Assembly (NCBI GenBank): GCA_937888775.1
Contig: CALAQT010000567.1
Span: forward strand, 1 to 11,110
Source: an uncultured Actinomycetes bacterium
GTDB taxonomy: Bacteria > Actinomycetota > Thermoleophilia > Solirubrobacterales > Solirubrobacteraceae
DNA: 11,110 nucleotides
Reading direction: 5' to 3'
Shown here: positions 3 to 9,723 of the stretch, one piece after another
Layout: every line of letters begins with the position of its first letter
Numbering within the stretch: position 1 is the first letter of the stretch
Made by a program: the position numbers and the translations under genes
The notes under the pieces: generated by a model
Databases searched by the model: none
The model's input: only the letters and a program-made list of their open reading frames with translations
What the model was told of the DNA's origin: nothing

Positions 3-722
3 CGGTGGCGCGGGCGCAGCCGGCGGCTGGTCATCGAGCTCGGCCGCGAGCGGCGCGCTCGGAAGCCCAAGCGCCTCCAGCGTGGATGAGCCCACTTCGA
101 TCTGGTCTCCTTCTCTCAGCGCACGCCCGTGGCCAACGCGCACGCCGTTGATCATCGTTCCGTTCGATGACCCGGTGTCCTCGATGAAGAACAGTCCGCC
201 CGGGCCGCGGGCGATCCGGGCGTGGCGCCGTGACAGCCGCTTGTCGCCCCCCAGGGCGCCAGGCTCGCCGAAGCCCCGGCCGATCAGCAGCTCATCGACC
301 AGCATTATCTCCTCGCCCTTGGTGGGTCCCGCGACGACCCGCAGCCTAGGTCCTGGGCTCGGCACTTCCGCGACCGTTGGCGCTGCGATCGGCACGGCGG
401 TGGCCAGACGGGTCGCGGCCGGGGCGGCGGGGACCTCGATCTCGAACGTCGTCTGTCCGACCCTGAGAACGTCTCCGCTCGCGACGATCCGGGCGTCCGT
501 CAGCCGCTGTTCGTTGATCCACGTCCCGTTCGTCGACCCCAGGTCCTCGACCGTCGGGCGCCCGGCGCCGTCGATGAACACCCTGGCGTGACGCCGCGAG
601 AGCCGCTCGTCCCCCCCGAGGCGCCCCTGCTCAGACGCCTCTCGCCCGAGCACCAGCTCGGAATCGACCGTGATCGTCTCGCCGGTACACGGCCCCCCCG
701 TGCATCGCAGCACTATGTTCAA
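3..722 (-). CDS. Tandem FHA-domain protein, C-terminus cut by window edge
   Basis: Phosphothreonine-reading adaptor, presumably cytosolic. The visible 240 residues hold two FHA domains: about 1-97 (GR at 26-27, LSRRHAR at 41-47, LGSTNGT at 61-67) and about 126-217 (IGRG at 147-150, LSRRHAR at 163-169, TGSSNGT at 183-189), joined by a Pro/Ala linker and followed by another Pro/Ala-rich stretch still open at the left edge. Each domain keeps the Gly-Arg, Ser-Arg-x-His and Asn-Gly residues that contact phospho-Thr in this fold. The start is a TTG at 722, chosen because it gives the usual FHA opening strand (MNIVLRCTGG) and has GAGGAA about 12 nt upstream; an in-frame stop lies about 30 nt upstream. 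It sits 46 nt behind the zinc-ribbon membrane protein, probably in one operon, and near a divergent Ser/Thr kinase that could supply its ligands. FHA assignment is secure; the partner is inferred. Confidence 0.88.
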   Translation of the reverse strand, partial: MNIVLRCTGGPCTGETITVDSELVLGREASEQGRLGGDERLSRRHARVFIDGAGRPTVEDLGSTNGTWINEQRLTDARIVASGDVLRVGQTTFEIEVPAAPAATRLATAVPIAAPTVAEVPSPGPRLRVVAGPTKGEEIMLVDELLIGRGFGEPGALGGDKRLSRRHARIARGPGGLFFIEDTGSSNGTMINGVRVGHGRALREGDQIEVGSSTLEALGLPSAPLAAELDDQPPAAPAPP

Positions 723-768: not shown

Positions 769-2001
769 TTACTGCCTGGCGCCGGAGGATTGGGCCGGCG
801 GCGAGACGCCGACCGACGAGCGGCTCCCCGGCAAAGCGGCCAGTGCGATACCGCAGCTCTCACAAAAGGCGCCGCGCCGTGTGCGATGACCGCAATTGGC
901 GCACGTAATGATCGGCGCATCCTCGATCAGCAGTGCCTCCTCGAGCAGCCCGACGTGAATCACCTGTCGCAACCACAGGAGCGCCAGCACCGCCAGCACC
1001 GCAATGATCGCGAGCGCGAGGCCGCTGGCCACCGTGATCTGCACCACCGCCGTGACGACCAGAAACGCGGCGCCCGCTGAAATCGCGATGTACAGGGATC
1101 CGAGACGGCCGAGCGCTCGTCGATCTCGGATCGGAGCGCGCAGCTTCAGCCATACGGCGCCTGCGCTCGCACCCATCGCCGCCATCGTCGCGAGCGGAAG
1201 CGCGATCGCGATGACCGCCAGCTGTACCAGCCACGGGATGACGGAACCGGGTGGACGGAGCCCGTGGCCGAACGCCGACAGCGCTTGCACGATGACCTCG
1301 GCAGCCACGAAGGCGGACGCGCTCGCGGCGGCGAACGTGGCGCCGTCGAGAACCGTCGAGAAGCGCGGATATCTCAACATCGCCAGCGGCCCAAGCAGGA
1401 TCAATGCGACGCTGATCAGCGGGATCACAACGCCGCGGGTAAGGACGAAGGTGCCGTGGCCGCCCACGAACACCTGACTGCCGGACGGCGACAGGCCCTT
1501 GGCGATCAGCGCGGTCACCACTCCGGCGGCGAGGCCCCACACTAGCGTGGCGCCGATGACCGGTAGCGACTGGTCCTCGAACACGTTGATGTCGACCATG
1601 TACAGCACGACCAGTACCGGCAGCAGCACCGCTCCGGCGATCAGGGCGACGGGGTAAAGCTTGGCTAGCCCGAGCACGAGCACCGTGGCCAGGCCGAGAC
1701 CCAGGCAGGTCCGAAACATGGCCATCGACGGACGCGGCAGCTGCGGGAAGATCGTCGAGACGATCGTCGGGCGCAGGACGCTTTCGTTCGGGGCGGCCGC
1801 GAACGCGCGCCGCACACCTGAAAGTGAGGACGGGTCGATCCTCAGCACGCCCGACAGACCTCGTCCCACTGCCGAAGCACCGGGCACCCGGCTGATCCCC
1901 GACAGCGCCGACACGCCACCCTCGTGCTCGTGACCACAGCGGATGCAGAATCGGCTCGCCGGAACCTCGTTGCCGCAGTGCTCGCACGTTCTAAGTGCCA
2001 T
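769..2001 (-). CDS. Polytopic membrane protein with a zinc ribbon at each end, PrsW-like core
   Basis: 410 residues. An N-terminal zinc ribbon (C6-x2-C9, C19-x2-C22) and a second near the C-terminus (C367-x2-C370, C380-x2-C383) bracket about eight hydrophobic segments between roughly residues 90 and 350. The stretch TVLDGATFAAASASAFVAAE at about 215-235 recalls the PrsW intramembrane protease motif in which DG and small residues lead to a membrane Glu, but I do not see the EExxK motif, so it may be a catalytically dead relative or only a look-alike. The ATG at 2001 is preferred over the in-frame TTG at 2007 because it directly begins the zinc ribbon (MALRTCEHCG). A TAGGAT -10-like box at 2011-2016 suggests a nearly leaderless transcript. 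It is divergent from the kinase and upstream of the tandem-FHA gene. The function is unknown; a membrane platform or pseudo-protease partner of the kinase is an inference. Confidence 0.8.
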   Translation of the reverse strand: MALRTCEHCGNEVPASRFCIRCGHEHEGGVSALSGISRVPGASAVGRGLSGVLRIDPSSLSGVRRAFAAAPNESVLRPTIVSTIFPQLPRPSMAMFRTCLGLGLATVLVLGLAKLYPVALIAGAVLLPVLVVLYMVDINVFEDQSLPVIGATLVWGLAAGVVTALIAKGLSPSGSQVFVGGHGTFVLTRGVVIPLISVALILLGPLAMLRYPRFSTVLDGATFAAASASAFVAAEVIVQALSAFGHGLRPPGSVIPWLVQLAVIAIALPLATMAAMGASAGAVWLKLRAPIRDRRALGRLGSLYIAISAGAAFLVVTAVVQITVASGLALAIIAVLAVLALLWLRQVIHVGLLEEALLIEDAPIITCANCGHRTRRGAFCESCGIALAALPGSRSSVGVSPPAQSSGARQ

Positions 2002-2065
2002 GCGCAAACGATCCTAACCAGCGGGCGCCAGAAACGCGACCGCTTGGCGCTTTGCGCTTCAGGTG

Positions 2066-2101
2066 TGGACAGAGTTGGGCCTTCGCCGTAGTCTGGCGCG
2101 C
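2066..2101 (+). promoter_or_regulatory. Probable leaderless promoter of the Ser/Thr kinase
   Basis: TGGACA at 2066-2071 (one mismatch to TTGACA) is followed after 17 nt by TAGTCT at 2089-2094, and the GTG at 2102 lies 7 nt beyond that, where transcription should begin. There is no Shine-Dalgarno sequence before this GTG. This fits a leaderless mRNA, common in actinobacteria. It also argues against the longer in-frame start at 2063, which would place the promoter inside the coding region. The divergent gene has its own TAGGAT box (2011-2016, minus strand), so the 100-bp gap probably holds back-to-back promoters. Confidence 0.5.
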
Positions 2102-3802
2102 GTGCGACAGCTGGGGCCTGGGGATGAGATAGCCGGCTACCGGATCGAGGCGATCGCCGGACGCGGGGGCATGGGACTTGTGTACCGCGCCCGCCAGCGG
2201 CGGCCCGACCGGACCGTCGCGATCAAGGTGATCGCGCCCGAGCTGGCGGCCGATCCGGGGTTCCGGGCCCGCTTTGAGCAGGAGTCGGCGACCGCCGCCG
2301 AGATCGAGCATCCGAACGTGATCCCGGTATACGAAGTGGGTGAGGAAGACGGGCTGCTGTTCATCTCGATGCGGTTCGTTCACGGGGTCGACCTCGGCCG
2401 CCTGCTGGCGCAGAGCGGTCGGCTCGATCCGGAGCGCGCGGCGCGCCTGATCTCGCAGGTGGCGGATGCGCTCGATGCCGCCCACGCGCGCGGGCTGGTG
2501 CACCGCGACGTGAAGCCGGGCAACATCCTCGTCACCGACCGTGACCACGTGTATCTGACCGACTTCGGCCTCACGAAGCGCACGACGGATTCGCACGGGA
2601 TGACACGGACGGGGATGTTCGTCGGCACCGTCGACTACATCGCTCCCGAGCAGGTCGAGGGTCGCCGGATCGACGCGCGCGCCGACGTCTATGCGCTGGG
2701 ATGTGTGACCTATGAGCTGCTGTCGGGCACGGTGCCGTTCCCCCGTGATTCCGACGTCGCCAAGATCTTCGCGCACGTCAACGACCCCCCTCCGCGGCTG
2801 CTCGGCGTTCCCGAGCCGCTGGCCGCGGCCGTCGAACGGGCGATGGCCAAGCGCCCGGAGGACCGGTTCCTCTCCGCCGGCGACTTCGGCCGTGCCGTGC
2901 GTGCCGGTGCCGCGGGCCGCATTATCGCGGACGGGGATCGCACGGTCGCCACCGGCGATGCGGCGATCGCCGGGGCGCACGCGCCGACCGAGCTCGCCGG
3001 ATACCCGCCGGCGACGATCGGGCCGGGCGCGCCGACCGAGACCGACCGGCCGACGCCGGCCCAATACGCGCCGACCCCGACCCCGACGGCGCACTCGGAG
3101 CCGACGGCTGGGACCCAACCGTCGCGCCGAAGGTGGACGCTGGGGGCTGGGGCCGCCGCGCTCGTGGCGGTCATCGGCGTCGGTGTGGCGATCGCGCTCG
3201 GCGCGAGCGGCTCGGGCCCGGCGACCACCACCACCACGACGACGACCACGACGCCCCGGACCACGTCCTCGACCTCGACCTCGATTTCGACCACGAGCAC
3301 CGCGCAGCCGACGGCAAAGCAGATCTATAGCCCCGCGAACGCGAGCGGCGGTCTTGCGGTGTCCGCACGCTCGGAGGGGGGCTCGTGCTTCGGCAGCTCA
3401 AACGTCACCACGCGCACCGACGCGTACCGCTGCATGTCGGGCAACCAGATCTACGACCCCTGCTTCTTCGTTAATCAAACCCAGGTTCTGTGCCCGAACA
3501 GTGGGCCATGGACGAATCGCGGCCTGTTGCTGAACGTTGGCACGCTGCCCAGCGCCCCCGGCACCCAGGATCAGGGGACCAATGGCCAACCTTGGGCGAT
3601 CCAGCTAGGCACCGGCACCAACTGCGTGGCGATCAGCGGCGCCACGGACGTGATCGCCGGTCAGCGGCTTGGCTACGACTGCTCGGGCGGAGTCGGCCTG
3701 TACGGCAACGTCCAGCGCTCGGGCCCCGCCTGGACGATCTACGTCGGCACCCCGCACAGCGCCACGCTGTCCCTGCGCCCGATCGCGGTCGCGTGGTTTT
3801 GA
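2102..3802 (+). CDS. Transmembrane Hanks-type Ser/Thr protein kinase with Cys-rich ectodomain
   Basis: PknB-class kinase, 566 residues from GTG 2102. The kinase domain (about 10-265) has the Gly loop GRGGMG at 20-25, the ATP-binding Lys in AIKVI at 42, catalytic HRDVKPGN at 134-141, DFG at 154-156 and APE at 181-183, with several Ser/Thr between DFG and APE for autophosphorylation, so it should be active. A Pro/Thr/Ala-rich juxtamembrane region (about 275-342) leads to one membrane helix (345-367), a Thr-rich linker with ten Thr in a row (375-384), and an extracytoplasmic domain (about 404-566) with six Cys. There are no PASTA repeats. The neighbouring FHA proteins are natural readers of its products. 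The gene is convergent with the cyclic-nucleotide-binding gene, 44 bp away. The kinase call is secure; the ectodomain ligand is unknown. Confidence 0.96.
   Translation: MRQLGPGDEIAGYRIEAIAGRGGMGLVYRARQRRPDRTVAIKVIAPELAADPGFRARFEQESATAAEIEHPNVIPVYEVGEEDGLLFISMRFVHGVDLGRLLAQSGRLDPERAARLISQVADALDAAHARGLVHRDVKPGNILVTDRDHVYLTDFGLTKRTTDSHGMTRTGMFVGTVDYIAPEQVEGRRIDARADVYALGCVTYELLSGTVPFPRDSDVAKIFAHVNDPPPRLLGVPEPLAAAVERAMAKRPEDRFLSAGDFGRAVRAGAAGRIIADGDRTVATGDAAIAGAHAPTELAGYPPATIGPGAPTETDRPTPAQYAPTPTPTAHSEPTAGTQPSRRRWTLGAGAAALVAVIGVGVAIALGASGSGPATTTTTTTTTTPRTTSSTSTSISTTSTAQPTAKQIYSPANASGGLAVSARSEGGSCFGSSNVTTRTDAYRCMSGNQIYDPCFFVNQTQVLCPNSGPWTNRGLLLNVGTLPSAPGTQDQGTNGQPWAIQLGTGTNCVAISGATDVIAGQRLGYDCSGGVGLYGNVQRSGPAWTIYVGTPHSATLSLRPIAVAWF
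3224..3253 (+). repeat. Ten-codon ACC/ACG threonine tract in the kinase gene
   Basis: Ten consecutive ACC or ACG codons encode ten Thr just outside the membrane helix of the kinase. The tract is likely a flexible, possibly O-glycosylated wall-spanning linker, and its length may vary between strains by slippage. Confidence 0.8.
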
Positions 3803-3846: not shown

Positions 3847-4293
3847 CTATGCCGAAGTCGTTCGTAGCCTCGCAGCCAGGATTCGCCCCAGGTCGAGCAG
3901 GATCCGCGTTGCCAGATGCGGGTCGCGGGCGGCGAGCGACTCGAAGGCTTCGAAGGAGAGGCGGAGCACCTCCCCGCTGGTGACCGCGCGCGCCGTTGCC
4001 GGTTGTCGGTCTCCGTCGATGAAGGCGAGCTCTCCGAGCTGCGCCGGCGCTTGAACGGTGGCCGGCGGCGACTGTGTTCCGGACAGCTCGACCAGGCCGA
4101 CGGTGAGCAGGTAGAGCGCGCGGTCGAGGTCGCCCTCAGCGAACACGATCTCCCCAGCACGGATGTTTCTGGTCTGCATGTGTGAAAGCAATGTGTTCCA
4201 CTCGCGTTCGCTGCAGTGGTCCAGGAAGCCCGTCTCGGACGCTGCCGGCTCCGCGGCAGCGGTCGGGTACGTGAAGAAGACTCGCGTGTCCAT
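3847..4293 (-). CDS. Stand-alone cyclic-nucleotide-binding (Crp/Fnr-type) domain protein
   Basis: 148 residues, almost entirely one cNMP-binding beta-roll. IRAGEIVFAEGDLDRALYLL matches the opening strands, GELAFIDGDRQPATARA at about 92-108 is the phosphate-binding cassette, and EVLRLS plus the last helices close the fold. There is no helix-turn-helix, so it is not a transcription factor, and no catalytic domain is attached. The cassette keeps Gly-Glu but has Arg-Gln-Pro where cAMP binders usually have Pro-Arg-Ser/Ala, so the ligand may differ or binding may be weak. Its ATG lies 9 nt past the stop of the FHA-redox gene, and its ribosome binding site GAAAGG overlaps that TGA, so the two should be translationally coupled and made together. 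It probably acts as a small regulatory subunit of the redox protein; that role is inference. Confidence 0.9.
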   Translation of the reverse strand: MDTRVFFTYPTAAAEPAASETGFLDHCSEREWNTLLSHMQTRNIRAGEIVFAEGDLDRALYLLTVGLVELSGTQSPPATVQAPAQLGELAFIDGDRQPATARAVTSGEVLRLSFEAFESLAARDPHLATRILLDLGRILAARLRTTSA

Positions 4294-4302
4294 GATCGCC
4301 TT

Positions 4303-7300
4303 TCAGCTCGCTCCGAGACCGACGACGCTGACGGGAGCGAGGGTCTTGCCCCGACCCACTCGCTCGAGCGCGGCCCACCTTCCGGCCCGGAGATCCTCGA
4401 TAACGGGGTTCACGTCCCATCCTTGCTTGACTGCACTCGTCACATGCGATACCTCCTGCGAGTAGCCCAACAGGATCGCCCCGGTGACACGGCCATCGGA
4501 GATCACCAGCTTGCCGTAACGGAGCGCACTGTCGTCATCTTGCACGATCACCTCATCGCGGTCGCTGGCGGGCTCGATCTGTCCGATCGAGGTCAGCTCA
4601 ACGCCAACGACCTTCAGCACCGTCACGGGGATCGTCCCGCGATACGGGTTGGTGCTTTCGAGCACCGCCGCCTCAGCCGCGACCCGCGCCTGCTCGACCG
4701 CGGCGGGCCACAGCCCCGCTACCTGCCCCTCGAACTCGGCGACGTCGCCGGCTGCGAAGACCCGATCGTCGCTGGTCTTCATGTGCTCGTCGACGACCAC
4801 GCCGCGCCGGACGTCGAGTTGCGCTTGATCAGCGAGCGCGACGTTGGGGGCAATACCCGCGGCCGCGACGATAACGTCGGCCGGTGCACTCCGAGCGTCC
4901 TTGAGGACGACCTCGCTCACGCTACCGCTGCTGGCGACCGCGGCGGTCTCGGCCCGCGTCCAGACTTTGATCCCGAGCCCCTCGATGTATCGGAGCAGCA
5001 GCTCCGCGGCCCGCTCGTCGAGCTGGCGGCGCAGCAGCCGGTCCGAGCGCTCCAGAACGGTCGTCGCGAGCCCGAGCTTGTGTAGCGCGTACGCGGCCTC
5101 GAGGCCGAGCAGTCCACCGCCGGCGACCACCGCACGGCGGGCACCGTGCACCTGGATGAACGCCCGCAGCTCCAGCGCGTCGTCCGCGGAGCGCAGCACG
5201 AACGTCCCCGGTGCACCCCAGCCGTCGATCGGCGGAACGAAGCTCGAGCTGCCGGTGGCGAGGATCAAGCGATCGTATGCGAGCCTCTCCTGGGTTCCCA
5301 GCAGCACTTCACGTTCGTCGCGGTCGATCGCCTTCGCGCGCGTGTTGAGCCACAGCGTGATGTCGCGCGACTCGCACCAGGAGTCGGGGTTCAGGTACAG
5401 CCCCTGCATTGCCGAGCGGCCGTACACGAGGCGGGTGATCGCCATCCGGTTGTACAGCTGATGGATCTCGTCCGCGACGATGTCGATTGCGCACTCGGGG
5501 TGGTTGCGACGCACGTAGTCGGCGGCAGTGATGCCGGCGATCCCGTTGCCGATCACGACCACTCGTTGCACCGAGCGGTCGAAGTTCAGGCGCGCGATCT
5601 TGCTCGGCGACGGCTGCGAAGCTGTCTCGGGGTCGAGCGAGACGGAGATCGGGCCCTTGATCCGGCAGCAGCAGGCCATGCGCGTGTTCTCGGCGAGGCC
5701 GAGGCGTTCGAGCGTTGCGGCTTCGTCGTCGGAGACCTCTGAGATGTTCTGCATCCCGTCCACGATCGCAACCGGGTCAGCGCCGCATACCCCCATGCGG
5801 CAACCCGCCTCGATCTGCAGCCCGTTGGCCTCGGCCACTTCGAGTACGGTCTGGCCGCGCTCGACCACGATCCGCTTGTCGTCGGGAACGAATCGGACTT
5901 CGGGCTTCCCGATCCCCGCGGCGGAGTGGCTTGCGATCGACCGCTGTCCGGCGCCCGCCACGGGCTTGGCGGCGCCGGCTTTCTTGAGAAACGCGCCCTC
6001 CTTGATGTAGGTACGAGCCACCCATAGCGCGGTCAGGCTGAACAGCACCACGCGCGCGACCCACGTGAGAGCGGTGGGCGACGACTCGCTGGCGAACGAT
6101 TTGAAGATCGTCGGGAAAGCGAACCAGTAGAAGATGTTGATCGCGGTGGCGCCGTAGATCGTCGTCAGCTTGTGCGTCGTTACGCCGACGAACGCATCGA
6201 GCAGGGAGAAGACCGTGACGCCGGCCGCCGCGTACAGAGCAAGCTCGCCGTACATGAGCCCAACCGAGATCTTCGGCACGTCGGGGACCTTGAAGAACCC
6301 GAGCACGAGCCCCGGGAAAGCGGCGATGAAGAACTTGCGCCCGGCGCTCCAGCTCGGGTCATCGTCGTTGAGGTCGGCCAGGTAGGCGACGCGCGGATTG
6401 AAGTCGTAGCAGTTCTTGGTGCAACCCACGCACGGCTGGCAGTGACTGTTCCCGACCAGCGCGAACGGCGTCTGACCGTAGATGCGCTGCACCGGCAACA
6501 GCGGACAGATCGAGCTGCACCATCCACTCTTGCCCTTCAGGAACATCCCCCCCAGAAACGCGCTGGCGAGCGCGTACACCAGAAGCAGCGCGCTCAGCGG
6601 ACCATTGGTCTGGAGCCCCACCTTACGCAGCGTTATGAAGACGACGAACCCGGTGATCGCAACGCCGTAGCCGTAGCGCTTGAGCCACGCGGGGGGCTCG
6701 AGTGCGCGCGTGATCCCGAGCACACGAGGGGTCTGGTTCGACGCCGCAAGCGGGCAGATGTTGCGCCACAAGCCCGGCGCGACGAAGAACAGGATCGGCA
6801 GCAGCGGGATGCCGATCCCCCACATGATCTTCAGCCCGGTCTTCGGAACCACAAACAGGAGCACAATCACGATCCAGGTCGCAAGCAGTCCGGCCCCGCG
6901 GACCACCCACCACGGGCGGATCGAGAGTAGAGACGGGATCTGCGTGTAATTCGGGAACGGGGGAAGGCCGGCACGCTGCGTTCTCAGCGCCCTCCAGCGG
7001 TCGACGAGGCCGGGCTGGCGGGGCCGGGGTGGCCTCGGCACGCGGACCTCCCGGCGCTCTGCGGCCGGAGCCGGAGCGTCAGCGGAGGCCGCCACCAGCT
7101 CGAGCATCGTCGCGCTGAGCCGTATCTGGTCGCCGAGAGCGAGCCGGCATGCCCGGTCGATCCGCGCCCCGTTGACGAACGTTCCGTTGGTCGACCCCAG
7201 GTCTTGCACCCAGACTCGGCCGTCACCGTCGAAGTAGAAGCGAGCGTGCTGACGCGACATCTTCTCGTCCTCAAGCGCAGCCCTACCGAGCGAAGTGCGG

Positions 7301-7380
7301 CCAAGCGTCAGCTCGTCGTTGAACGCAAGCGTCTCACCAGGCGCGCCGCGAGGTCGCAGACGTAGGTAGGCGATGGCCAT
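4303..7380 (-). CDS. FHA / membrane [4Fe-4S] / [2Fe-2S] ferredoxin / NirB-like FAD reductase fusion
   Basis: 1025 residues with four modules. (1) FHA domain, 1-97: LGR 26-28, SRQHAR 42-47, LGSTNGT 61-67. (2) Membrane module, about 155-460, with roughly eight helices. NICP at 208, CSSIC at 288-292 and CQPCVGCTKNC at 314-324 give seven Cys, arranged like the NapH/NosR-type polyferredoxins. (3) Plant-type ferredoxin, about 495-585: C527, C532 and C570-572, with Asp535 where the third Cys ligand is expected. (4) FAD/NAD(P)H oxidoreductase, about 603-1000: GNGIAG 611-616, YNRMAITRLVYG, GGGLLG 754-759 and AAGDVAEF 876-883, closest in style to the NirB N-terminal half. Together these suggest electron flow between NAD(P)H and a membrane or quinone partner via FAD, [2Fe-2S] and [4Fe-4S], gated by phospho-Thr binding. 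Start ATG 7380 has AGGA 11 nt upstream and begins the FHA strand. Domain calls are strong; direction and acceptor are unknown. Confidence 0.92.
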   Translation of the reverse strand: MAIAYLRLRPRGAPGETLAFNDELTLGRTSLGRAALEDEKMSRQHARFYFDGDGRVWVQDLGSTNGTFVNGARIDRACRLALGDQIRLSATMLELVAASADAPAPAAERREVRVPRPPRPRQPGLVDRWRALRTQRAGLPPFPNYTQIPSLLSIRPWWVVRGAGLLATWIVIVLLFVVPKTGLKIMWGIGIPLLPILFFVAPGLWRNICPLAASNQTPRVLGITRALEPPAWLKRYGYGVAITGFVVFITLRKVGLQTNGPLSALLLVYALASAFLGGMFLKGKSGWCSSICPLLPVQRIYGQTPFALVGNSHCQPCVGCTKNCYDFNPRVAYLADLNDDDPSWSAGRKFFIAAFPGLVLGFFKVPDVPKISVGLMYGELALYAAAGVTVFSLLDAFVGVTTHKLTTIYGATAINIFYWFAFPTIFKSFASESSPTALTWVARVVLFSLTALWVARTYIKEGAFLKKAGAAKPVAGAGQRSIASHSAAGIGKPEVRFVPDDKRIVVERGQTVLEVAEANGLQIEAGCRMGVCGADPVAIVDGMQNISEVSDDEAATLERLGLAENTRMACCCRIKGPISVSLDPETASQPSPSKIARLNFDRSVQRVVVIGNGIAGITAADYVRRNHPECAIDIVADEIHQLYNRMAITRLVYGRSAMQGLYLNPDSWCESRDITLWLNTRAKAIDRDEREVLLGTQERLAYDRLILATGSSSFVPPIDGWGAPGTFVLRSADDALELRAFIQVHGARRAVVAGGGLLGLEAAYALHKLGLATTVLERSDRLLRRQLDERAAELLLRYIEGLGIKVWTRAETAAVASSGSVSEVVLKDARSAPADVIVAAAGIAPNVALADQAQLDVRRGVVVDEHMKTSDDRVFAAGDVAEFEGQVAGLWPAAVEQARVAAEAAVLESTNPYRGTIPVTVLKVVGVELTSIGQIEPASDRDEVIVQDDDSALRYGKLVISDGRVTGAILLGYSQEVSHVTSAVKQGWDVNPVIEDLRAGRWAALERVGRGKTLAPVSVVGLGAS

Positions 7381-7692
7381 CGCTAGGGGCGTCCTGGAGT
7401 CGTGGTTTCGGCGGCCCTGAGGTCGGCCATTTTCGCGATCGTATTCGATCTAAGCCAACGCGGACGCGCTTTTGCGGACGGCACGAGCAACCGGCTGGCT
7501 GGGTCTCAGCCAGATGGCGCGGCCGCGCGTGAGGTCACCCCCGCGTTAGCAGGGCTTTCCCCATATCGGGGAGGCAGGATTTGAAGCTGCGACCGCCATT
7601 TGATGAGCGACTCGCCGACCCGAAGCTGGTCTCGCTGAGCTGGCCACCGATCAGAGCGCCGCCTGGGTTCCGCGGTGGTTTTGCGGCGCCGC
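7381..7692. other. Non-coding gap with hairpin and tRNA-like relic
   Basis: No convincing gene is present. It should hold the promoter of the FHA-redox gene (minus strand), but I could not fix good -35/-10 boxes. A perfect 7-bp stem with a 5-nt loop lies at 7495-7513 (CTGGCTG / CAGCCAG). CCCC and GGGG flank ATATC at 7559-7571, next to the tRNA-like segment. In minus-strand sense, CCCTGC-TAAC-GCGGGG just beyond could form another small hairpin. The gap marks the edge between the intact redox operon and decayed DNA. Confidence 0.5.
7566..7650 (-). pseudogene. tRNA-like relic (T-arm and 3' acceptor resemblance)
   Basis: On the minus strand, GCAGC-TTCAAAT-CCTGC (7590 down to 7574) has a canonical 7-nt T-loop and a 5-bp T-stem with one C-C clash at the closing pair, followed by CTCCCCGA as a would-be 3' acceptor strand. 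Upstream, CAGCTCAG recalls a D-arm and TCGGTGG can pair with TCCCCGA at six of seven positions (one G-T). I could not form a believable anticodon arm, so a working tRNA is unlikely. It may be a decayed tRNA or the 3' copy left by an integrated element, or chance. Confidence 0.25.
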
Positions 7693-8548
7693 TGGTCAGC
7701 GTGCGTAGAGGTCGTCGAAGACGTTCGCGAGGATCTCCAGCGCGATCGGCGCGCCGCCAGATAGCGCCTCGCGCAGGTTGCCGCCAAAGAGAGCCCGGAC
7801 CCTGGAGAAGACGTGCTCGTCGGCACGCTCGAAGGGCTCGCGCAGGTCGGCGGGCACGGGCTCGCCCCGGGCCTCCAGCGCGCGGACCCGCACGCCGAGC
7901 TGCACGGCACGGCACGGCGGAGATCCTCGCGCTGCTCGGGCGGAACTTGTGTCATCGCCAGCGCCTAGAGCTGCTCGAAGATGCGCGGCACCGACGGGAC
8001 GTAGTCGGGATGCACCTCCATCAGCTCGGGGATGATCTGCCTGGTGTCACCGCCGTAGTAGGCCAGCGCGGCGCCGACCCGGAAGGCCGCGAGCTGTGCG
8101 ATCTGCGCGAACACATGCGCGAGAGGGAGATAGAGGTAGGCAACCTCGCCTGGCAGCAGCGTCTCGATCTCCACGACGATCGAGCAGAGCGACATCGCGT
8201 TGCGGTGCGACAGCACGCAACCCTTCGGTGGGCCTGTCGTGCTCGACGTGCAGATGATCAGCGCGGGATCGTCGGGACCCCGGCGTCGCGGCGACGCGAG
8301 AGCTCCTCGCGGTCGCCGCCCGACGCCGCGATGGCGTCCATTGCGACCACTCCCTCGGCGGCGTCGCGACCCTCGATGACCAAGACGCTGCGCAGCACCG
8401 GGAGCGCCTCGCGGACCGCGTCGATCTTGGCGAGCTGCGCCGCGTTCTCGACGATCACCGCAACCGCTCCGGAGTTCCCAGCGACCCACTCGCATTCCTC
8501 GGGCGAGTTCGTCGGGTAGATCGGTGCTGTTCTGATCAAGCCGGCGCG
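7693..8548 (-). pseudogene. Broken long-chain acyl-CoA synthetase (FadD-type AMP-binding)
   Basis: Three reading frames in order carry pieces of one adenylate-forming acyl-CoA synthetase: IYPTNSPEECEWVAGNSGAV (frame ending about 8258), then DDPALIICTSSTTGPPKGC with YLYLPLAHVFAQ (ending at 7965), then QLGVRVRALEARGEPVPADL and ALSGGAPIA (ending at 7693). Lesions visible are a 1-nt shift near 8270-8282, an in-frame TAG at 7965-7967 where the family usually has Tyr (EQL-stop-ALAMTQ), and a third copy of a CACGG unit at 7903-7917 that shifts the frame. The nucleotide-binding P-loop reads TSSTTGPPKG instead of TSGTTGxPKG. Roughly the first 80-90 residues and the whole C-terminal half of a ~600-residue enzyme are missing, so no activity is expected. 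Functional relatives activate fatty acids to acyl-CoA. Pseudogene status is clear unless the sequence has errors. Confidence 0.88.
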
Positions 8549-9051: not shown

Positions 9052-9723
9052 GTGACGCTACCCAGAAAGCGAACTGGACCGTTGTCTACACCACCGTTTC
9101 CCTCAACGAATGAGTTGGCTGCGCGTGGCGCGCCGGTCGAATCCCGAGACGGTGCGCACATTCGCGTGCGCCAGGGCCGCAGCTCTGACAGAGAGCTTCT
9201 GTTGCGCGGCTTTGAGCGACTCAGCAACGAGTCACGCTACCGCCGGTTCCTTGCGCCGATGCCGGAGCTCAGCGAAACGATGGTGCATTACCTGCTCGAG
9301 GTCGACCACCACAACCACGAAGCAATCATCGCTCTTGAGGAGGGAACCGGCGAAGGGATCGGGGTGGCGCGTTATATCCGCAACACCAAGTGCCCCGACA
9401 CGGCCGAGGTCGCGGTCACCGTGATCGACGACTGGCAAGCACGAGGCGTCGGCACGCTCCTGCTCGAGGTCCTCAGCGAACGAGCACGCGAGGCGAGCAT
9501 CACCACCTTCACAGCCCTGATGTTGGCCACAAACCAGGACATGATGGATGTGCTGACGAATCTCGGCCCATTCCGAATCATCGACCGCGAACTCGGCACA
9601 GTCGAGATCCAGATGCCAATCCCCGAAGTCGGGCTCTCACCCGCCCTGCGCAAGCTGCTAGGCATAGCCGCCCTCCACGACGTCGCCGTAGCGCCCGGCG
9701 CTATGACTCAAGCGACCACGTGA
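9052..9723 (+). CDS. GNAT acetyltransferase, Pat-like (protein lysine acetyltransferase type)
   Basis: 223 residues; GNAT domain from about 37 to 190. RLSNESRYRRFLAPMPELSE (56-75) followed by VDHHNHEAIIAL is the signature of the Pat-type acetyltransferases that modify lysines, for example in acyl-CoA synthetases. AEVAVTVIDDWQARGVGT gives the core strand with Glu119, the likely general base position, and the acetyl-CoA pyrophosphate loop Q129-x-x-G132-x-G134. Mycobacterial Pat carries an N-terminal cAMP-binding domain; this protein has only about 36 Pro/Arg-rich residues there. The start GTG 9052 lacks a clear ribosome binding site, and a later in-frame TTG (about 9112) would keep the whole domain, so the N-terminus is uncertain. 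A separate cNMP-binding protein and a dead acyl-CoA synthetase in the same window are suggestive but not linked by operon. The substrate is unproven. Confidence 0.88.
   Translation: MTLPRKRTGPLSTPPFPSTNELAARGAPVESRDGAHIRVRQGRSSDRELLLRGFERLSNESRYRRFLAPMPELSETMVHYLLEVDHHNHEAIIALEEGTGEGIGVARYIRNTKCPDTAEVAVTVIDDWQARGVGTLLLEVLSERAREASITTFTALMLATNQDMMDVLTNLGPFRIIDRELGTVEIQMPIPEVGLSPALRKLLGIAALHDVAVAPGAMTQATT

Follow-up and report, generated by a model that had tools for sequence, protein, structure and literature searches.

Genes and domain order at the locus

The window, that is, the whole stretch of 11,110 nucleotides analysed here, carries on its minus strand a redox gene (4303..7380), described from ORF analysis, Pfam, homologues and AlphaFold2. 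The reading frame starts with an ATG at 7380 and runs uninterrupted down to 4303, giving 1025 residues, while the plus strand frame over the same span contains several stops. The earlier note had placed one intact 1025-residue frame here; both the frame and its coordinates stand, but the strand has to be corrected to minus. The gene is followed after 9 nt by a gene for a 148 aa cNMP-binding-domain protein with an FF-x-Y-P start (3847..4293, minus; Pfam and alignment), towards which a Ser/Thr kinase gene (2063..3802, plus; Pfam and motifs) converges. Further along lie a gene for a zinc-ribbon protein with hydrophobic stretches (769..2007, minus), seen in the translation with Pfam matches below their cut-offs, and a gene for a two-FHA protein that is cut by the window edge (3..722, minus; Pfam and FHA comparison).

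The 1025-residue protein joins, in this order, an FHA domain, a membrane module, a [2Fe-2S]-type domain and an FAD domain of the NADH-ferredoxin-reductase type. Pfam matches above cut-off are FHA (residues 25–88, 6.5e-17), Fer2 (501–575, 1.9e-8), Pyr_redox_2 (606–898, 1.4e-57) and Rubredoxin_C (918–987, 2.9e-15). An AlphaFold2 model of the full chain, built from 64 sequences (mean pLDDT 83.9), contains the FHA domain, eight long helices, Fer2 and the FAD domain; its pTM is 0.54, so that the arrangement of the domains is not established by the model. Pfam and AlphaFold2 thus agree with the order that had been proposed for the modules within a single chain.

The homologue searches considered the best 120 of about 1500 matches per search, and frequencies drawn from them are therefore not a census. 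Among the best 120 of the 1516 homologues found, the top 18 are 69–98% identical with 99–100% coverage, and all of them have FHA, Fer2 and Pyr_redox_2. The earlier note had asked whether relatives share the fusion or whether separate genes had been misassembled; the 18 best relatives carry the fusion over its full length. That the fusion would be an assembly or annotation artefact joining separate genes can practically be dismissed, as it is already contradicted by relatives fused over their full length, which occur on many contigs and come from several sources, and no evidence supporting it was found. The lower rows among these 120 are mostly about 860–940 aa long and devoid of FHA, and by these alignments the FHA-less core is the wider family around the FHA-bearing members.

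A scan of genomes gave 43 loci. L001–L035, some of them cut by contig ends, match the membrane module and are taken to be family members; they are spread over Actinomycetota, Pseudomonadota, Chloroflexota and Verrucomicrobiota. The remaining loci (L036–L043) match other parts of the redox protein and not the membrane module. The nearest named genome belongs to an order in which 38 of 232 genomes match at E 1e-60 but only seven have matches that reach the membrane module (G001, G014, G200, G201, G203, G205 and G206), besides G149, whose contig ends inside the redox gene. The other listed matches correspond to the FAD part, some of them also covering part of Fer2. The redox fusion is therefore rare in this order. 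Where the sources name family members, they mostly call them nitrite reductase, FAD-dependent oxidoreductase or 2,4-dienoyl-CoA reductase/sulfur reductase-like enzyme. A search of open-licence papers found no description of this architecture, in line with the earlier claim that no protein with this order has been characterised. The modules are known separately; their combination in one protein appears to be new.

Reductase, ferredoxin-type domain and membrane module

The FAD/NADH domain of the ferredoxin-reductase type (residues 606–987; 4420..5565, minus; Pfam and fold) retains the GxGxxG glycines of its FAD and NAD sites in 271–274 of 274 rows and superposes on TodA (3ef6), BphA4 and putidaredoxin reductase; both the fold and the dinucleotide-binding motifs of the TodA/BphA4 type are thus present. 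These enzymes are the ferredoxin-NAD reductases of oxygenase systems and share the FAD domain, whereas in the window the reductase forms one chain with a ferredoxin-like domain of its own, a membrane module and FHA. The strand of the NAD site ends in Glu-Arg (777–778), a pair conserved in at least 90% of 64 rows. By a general rule, this ending suggests that the redox protein prefers NADH over NADPH. The NirB-like FAD/NAD(P)H reductase announced by the earlier note is borne out as an NADH reductase domain of the NirB type, NirB being the large subunit of NADH nitrite reductase, with which the N-terminal FAD/NADH part is shared. The whole protein was rejected as a NirB nitrite reductase, since it reaches 294 bits against an equivalog cut-off of 578 and matches only positions 1–388 of the 794 of the profile, the C-terminal half being unmatched. 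With such a partial match below cut-off, the source name 'nitrite reductase' seems misleading.

The oxygenase-feeding kind of this FAD domain could indicate a reductase that serves a specific substrate (metal ion, desaturase, P450 or dioxygenase) rather than quinone, and CcoG-type membrane Fe-S proteins reduce copper. We consider such a substrate-specific reductase rather unlikely, because the annotated recurrent neighbour groups include no recognised oxygenase or metal gene.

The Fer2 [2Fe-2S]-type domain (residues 501–575; 5656..5880, minus; Pfam) scores 34.6 bits against a cut-off of 21 and carries the motif C527-x4-C532-x2-D535, followed by C570. The alignment sets the Asp535 codon (5776..5778, minus) against the third Cys ligand of plant-type ferredoxins. 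Asp occupies this position in all 273 covering rows (276 rows in all) and Cys in none; C570 is conserved in 272 of 273 rows, and positions 571 and 572 are variable. In the solved relatives 9i2a, 6laa and 1i7h, the aligned residue is Cys. When the Fer2 domain alone was used as query, 28 short proteins were found, 27 with the Asp motif and none with Cys; the remaining one, the ferredoxin-like P0258, shows a Ser where the third Cys ligand is expected. The family therefore shares with plant-type and ISC [2Fe-2S] ferredoxins the Fer2 profile and three of the four Cys, but has Asp for the third Cys in every covering row, and assignment to the standard plant type with four Cys ligands (C-x4-C-x2-C...C) was rejected on this ground. 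The proposed [2Fe-2S] ferredoxin module thus holds as a Fer2 domain and not as a full set of Cys ligands.

From this conservation, Asp535 most likely ligates the [2Fe-2S] cluster; alternatively, the cluster would be ligated by three Cys only, otherwise non-standard, or absent. In NsrR, a [4Fe-4S] cluster is reported to have an Asp ligand (PMC5411485). Searches of open-licence papers on Asp-ligated [2Fe-2S] clusters and on NapH-like proteins found no description of this family. An Asp fixed in a plant-type ferredoxin domain raises a separate and clean question on Fe-S ligation.

The membrane module (residues 154–468; 5977..6921, minus; AlphaFold2 and alignment) is predicted to have eight long helices and, modelled alone, gives a pLDDT of 89.3 and a pTM of 0.89. 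It carries the cluster motifs CX3CP (288–292) and CX2CX2CX3C (314–324; both within 6409..6519, minus, from the alignment), which we take to be motifs of the NapH/MauN type. Cys 209, 288, 292, 314, 317, 320 and 324 are conserved in 274 or 275 of the 275 covering rows. The Fer4_5 match of this part lies below the Pfam cut-off in the window and above it in the relative L035. NapH/MauN ferredoxin-type membrane proteins share both motifs and a weak profile match, but the window protein has eight predicted helices, one full CX3CP and a single Cys at the other site. Membership of NapH was rejected, the two profiles giving 21.7 bits (E 9e-5, cut-off 234) and 17 bits (cut-off 213). The NapH/NosR-like [4Fe-4S] module that had been suggested therefore stands as a membrane module with Cys motifs, its likeness to NapH being distant and below the family cut-offs. 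No resembling fold was found among the solved structures compared with the module; together with the weak likeness to NapH, this makes the quinone step a guess. Positive-inside reasoning and the even number of helices would put FHA, the clusters and FAD on the cytoplasmic side.

Signalling domains and neighbouring genes

The cNMP-binding domain of the small protein encoded next to the redox gene scores 53 bits against a cut-off of 27.5. Of 42 loci examined, 38 are informative, and in 34 of these such a gene stands next to the redox gene; the four uninformative loci (L005, L009, L031 and L079) are cut by contig ends. The partner, mostly 150–160 aa long, has a single cNMP-binding domain and starts with a conserved FF-x-Y-P/G; its gene mostly overlaps the redox gene or stands within about 25 nt of it, downstream in the window and L001 and upstream in the other loci. 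It is absent despite adequate flank from L006, L014, L016 and L017, all four FHA-bearing. In the loci compared, the cNMP-binding protein is a more constant partner than FHA, and it is probably the older input. At L074:4782-13088, two tandem cNMP-redox gene pairs stand behind one kinase gene.

The partner's presumed cAMP-contacting Arg was located by alignment to a CRP sequence, in which this residue touches the phosphate of cAMP. The cNMP protein of the window has QPA at this position of the phosphate-binding cassette and has lost the Arg. Of 30 FHA-less rows, 28 have it (two of these being second, non-adjacent copies); it is missing or shifted in the window, L001, L011 and L026, and retained in the FHA-bearing L022, L023 and L024. 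A degraded or absent cAMP input was found in 8 of 11 FHA rows versus 1 of 24 FHA-less rows (Fisher p 6e-5), a comparison in which relatedness leaves two independent contrasts, too few for a test, and which leaves out L005, L009, L031, L076 and the partial cores L030, L032 and L034; L034 is FHA-less and devoid of the Arg, and adding the three partial cores brings the FHA-less count to 2 of 27.

The FHA domain (residues 25–88; 7117..7308, minus; Pfam, residues and pattern) scores 62.2 bits against a cut-off of 20.7. Its GR...SRQH...STNGT sequence keeps intact, in the translation, the pThr-contact residues GR, S-R-x-H and N-G-T, so that the phospho-Thr reader that had been proposed indeed shows the canonical residues expected of one. 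The contact pattern fits 73 rows, and P0007, P0162, P0207 and P0226 are FHA rows outside it.

In the core tree, rows with an N-terminal FHA fall into two groups with FHA-less rows between them, one being the clade with the window and the other comprising Geodermatophilus, Actinomycetospora, Mycobacterium sp. and Streptosporangiaceae rows; the sequence of L009 starts inside its linker, and its FHA state is not assignable. A single clade of N-terminal FHA rows is rejected (p-AU 0.00078; 21 rows versus 25), as is a single FHA clade with P0108 added (p-AU 2e-6; 22 rows versus 25). In P0108, the FHA is C-terminal (residues 1023–1086). Acquisition of FHA thus apparently took place on more than one occasion, at the N-terminus in two groups and at the C-terminus in P0108. 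The FHA of the window is 45% and 40% identical to the two FHAs of the protein encoded at 3..722 (75 and 59 bits), 30–37% to six FHAs of the other clade (18–54 bits) and 40% to the FHA of P0108 (51 bits); among the 14 FHAs compared, those of the protein encoded at 3..722 come nearest to the redox FHA once its own clade is set aside. In P0133, P0138 and P0228, a hydrophobic N-terminal extension takes the place of FHA, and a Pfam scan of the extensions of P0133 and P0228 gave no match. The N-terminus looks like an input slot; in this redox system linked to signalling, FHA is optional and probably the younger half.

Many FHA domains do no more than dock, and FHA might only anchor the oxidoreductase in a pThr-organised membrane complex, electron flow being unregulated. 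The tandem FHAs of L026, P0129, P0134 and P0169, the fusion of FHA at either terminus and the FHA proteins encoded nearby would fit such a scaffold, which we regard as quite improbable, as it explains neither the presence of the cNMP partner at 34 of 38 loci nor the kinases that share an operon with FHA-less members.

The kinase of the window has intact HRD, DFG and APE catalytic motifs; in its translation, the kinase domain is followed by a hydrophobic and a Thr-rich stretch. No PASTA match was found in Pfam at E 0.01, and the kinase was rejected as an equivalog of the PknB/Stk1 type, with 301.6 bits against 450 for NF033483 and no PASTA. A kinase lies within 5 kb in 6 of 14 actinobacterial loci versus 0.37 expected (P=7e-7), the 14 loci being those with genome-wide kinase counts, the 5 kb distance having been chosen after the loci were seen, and L006 and L014 being congeners. 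Linkage is absent from the other 8 of the 14, three of them with short flanks. A tight kinase-cNMP-redox operon, with the kinase gene first, occurs in the FHA-less L074, L075 and L077, and the FHA-bearing L026 has the same gene order; in L076 and L078, the upstream sequence of only about 1.2 kb is too short to tell. Linkage that is absent from 8 of 14 loci and present in FHA-less ones does not by itself prove an FHA-kinase pair. The tie to protein phosphorylation that had been proposed for the redox protein finds support in the kinases encoded nearby at some of the loci.

The C-termini of the L074, L075 and L077 kinases are beta-propeller-like; such a domain was not found in the kinases of L016, L017 and L026. 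With the window kinase as query, the linked kinase ranks first in G001 (of 10 matches; 268.5 versus 268.1 bits for the next, a near tie), second in G200 (of 27) and in G203 (of 24), and third in G205 (of 37). The linked kinase of G012, identified by its coordinates, ranks third of 15 and is only 34% identical to that of the window; a linked kinase is absent from G014. A T-x-T activation loop is common to the Solirubrobacterales kinases and, by analogy with PknB and the FHA proteins that partner it, is a plausible FHA ligand.

Class III cyclase-like genes are found in 8 of 42 loci (L002, L009, L018, L022, L023, L028, L033 and L079). An FHA fused to a class III cyclase-like domain is encoded tail-to-tail with the redox gene at L009:2760-3869, L022:5787-7244 and L023:5387-6844, and a recurrent neighbour whose FHA is C-terminal, its N-terminal part being unassigned, lies at L006:13139-14539, L014:13145-14347, L016:13063-14004, L017:4979-6448 and L022:7015-8397. 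The annotated recurrent neighbours are mainly signalling proteins (kinases, FHA proteins and class III cyclase-like proteins), and no electron acceptor stood out among the annotated neighbour groups common to at least three loci. Both points would suit a redox sensor, in which the NADH/quinone state would be read at FAD/Fe-S and the kinase or neighbouring cyclases would receive it through FHA and the cNMP protein, and an Asp ligand could make the cluster sensor-like. However, FHA and cNMP domains are readers and not writers of signals, and the cNMP gene is the sole recognised signalling neighbour of many core members. Such a sensor is, in our view, unlikely.

Proposed electron transfer and its control

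The architecture, its conservation and the gene linkage are read from the sequences, which favour more than one FHA acquisition; the cofactors, cluster ligation, electron direction, acceptor and gating are those that we infer for the redox protein. We lean slightly towards a membrane flavoprotein that oxidises NADH and transfers its electrons, and cyclic-nucleotide and phospho-Thr signals would set its activity or docking. NADH would reduce FAD in the ferredoxin-reductase-type domain, and the electrons would move on to a [2Fe-2S] centre of unusual ligation (three Cys and probably one Asp), then to one or more [4Fe-4S] centres at the cytoplasmic face of the eight-helix membrane module, and finally to a membrane acceptor, most likely quinone. 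The separate cNMP-binding subunit would be the more constant, probably older, signal input on activity or docking. In the lineage of the window, in which the cNMP protein has no presumed cAMP-contacting Arg, an FHA would have been added at the N-terminus and should bind a phospho-Thr protein, most likely a nearby kinase or its substrate.

Electron flow may be controlled directly by phosphorylation, as the earlier note had it; the protein could possibly dock to a phosphorylated partner instead. The idea of gating is a reasonable one. Bacterial respiratory control is usually described at transcription, and GarA/OdhI are FHA proteins that control 2-oxoglutarate dehydrogenase. The latter share with the proposed system an FHA that reads kinase output to control metabolism, but GarA/OdhI is a separate small inhibitor, whereas here FHA is part of the redox protein itself. 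A phosphorylation reader joined to an apparent NADH electron-transfer chain, among signalling neighbours, suggests an undescribed switch of electron flow. A bolder version is tentative and somewhat improbable: the family would be undescribed membrane NADH dehydrogenases in which cNMP and later-acquired phosphorylation directly switch electron flow, the fixed-Asp [2Fe-2S] cluster being ligand- or proton-gated. With a pThr reader in the same polypeptide and a cNMP-domain partner encoded next door, direct signal control of electron transfer would be testable with two or three purified parts.

The window has two further features. At 9052–9723 (plus), a GNAT acetyltransferase devoid of any cNMP domain match resembles the catalytic part of the mycobacterial Pat (108 bits versus a cut-off of 460). 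At 7570–8540 (minus), a remnant of an acyl-CoA ligase (AMP-binding) extends across different frames, the start of its AMP-binding domain was not found, and it looks like a decayed gene.
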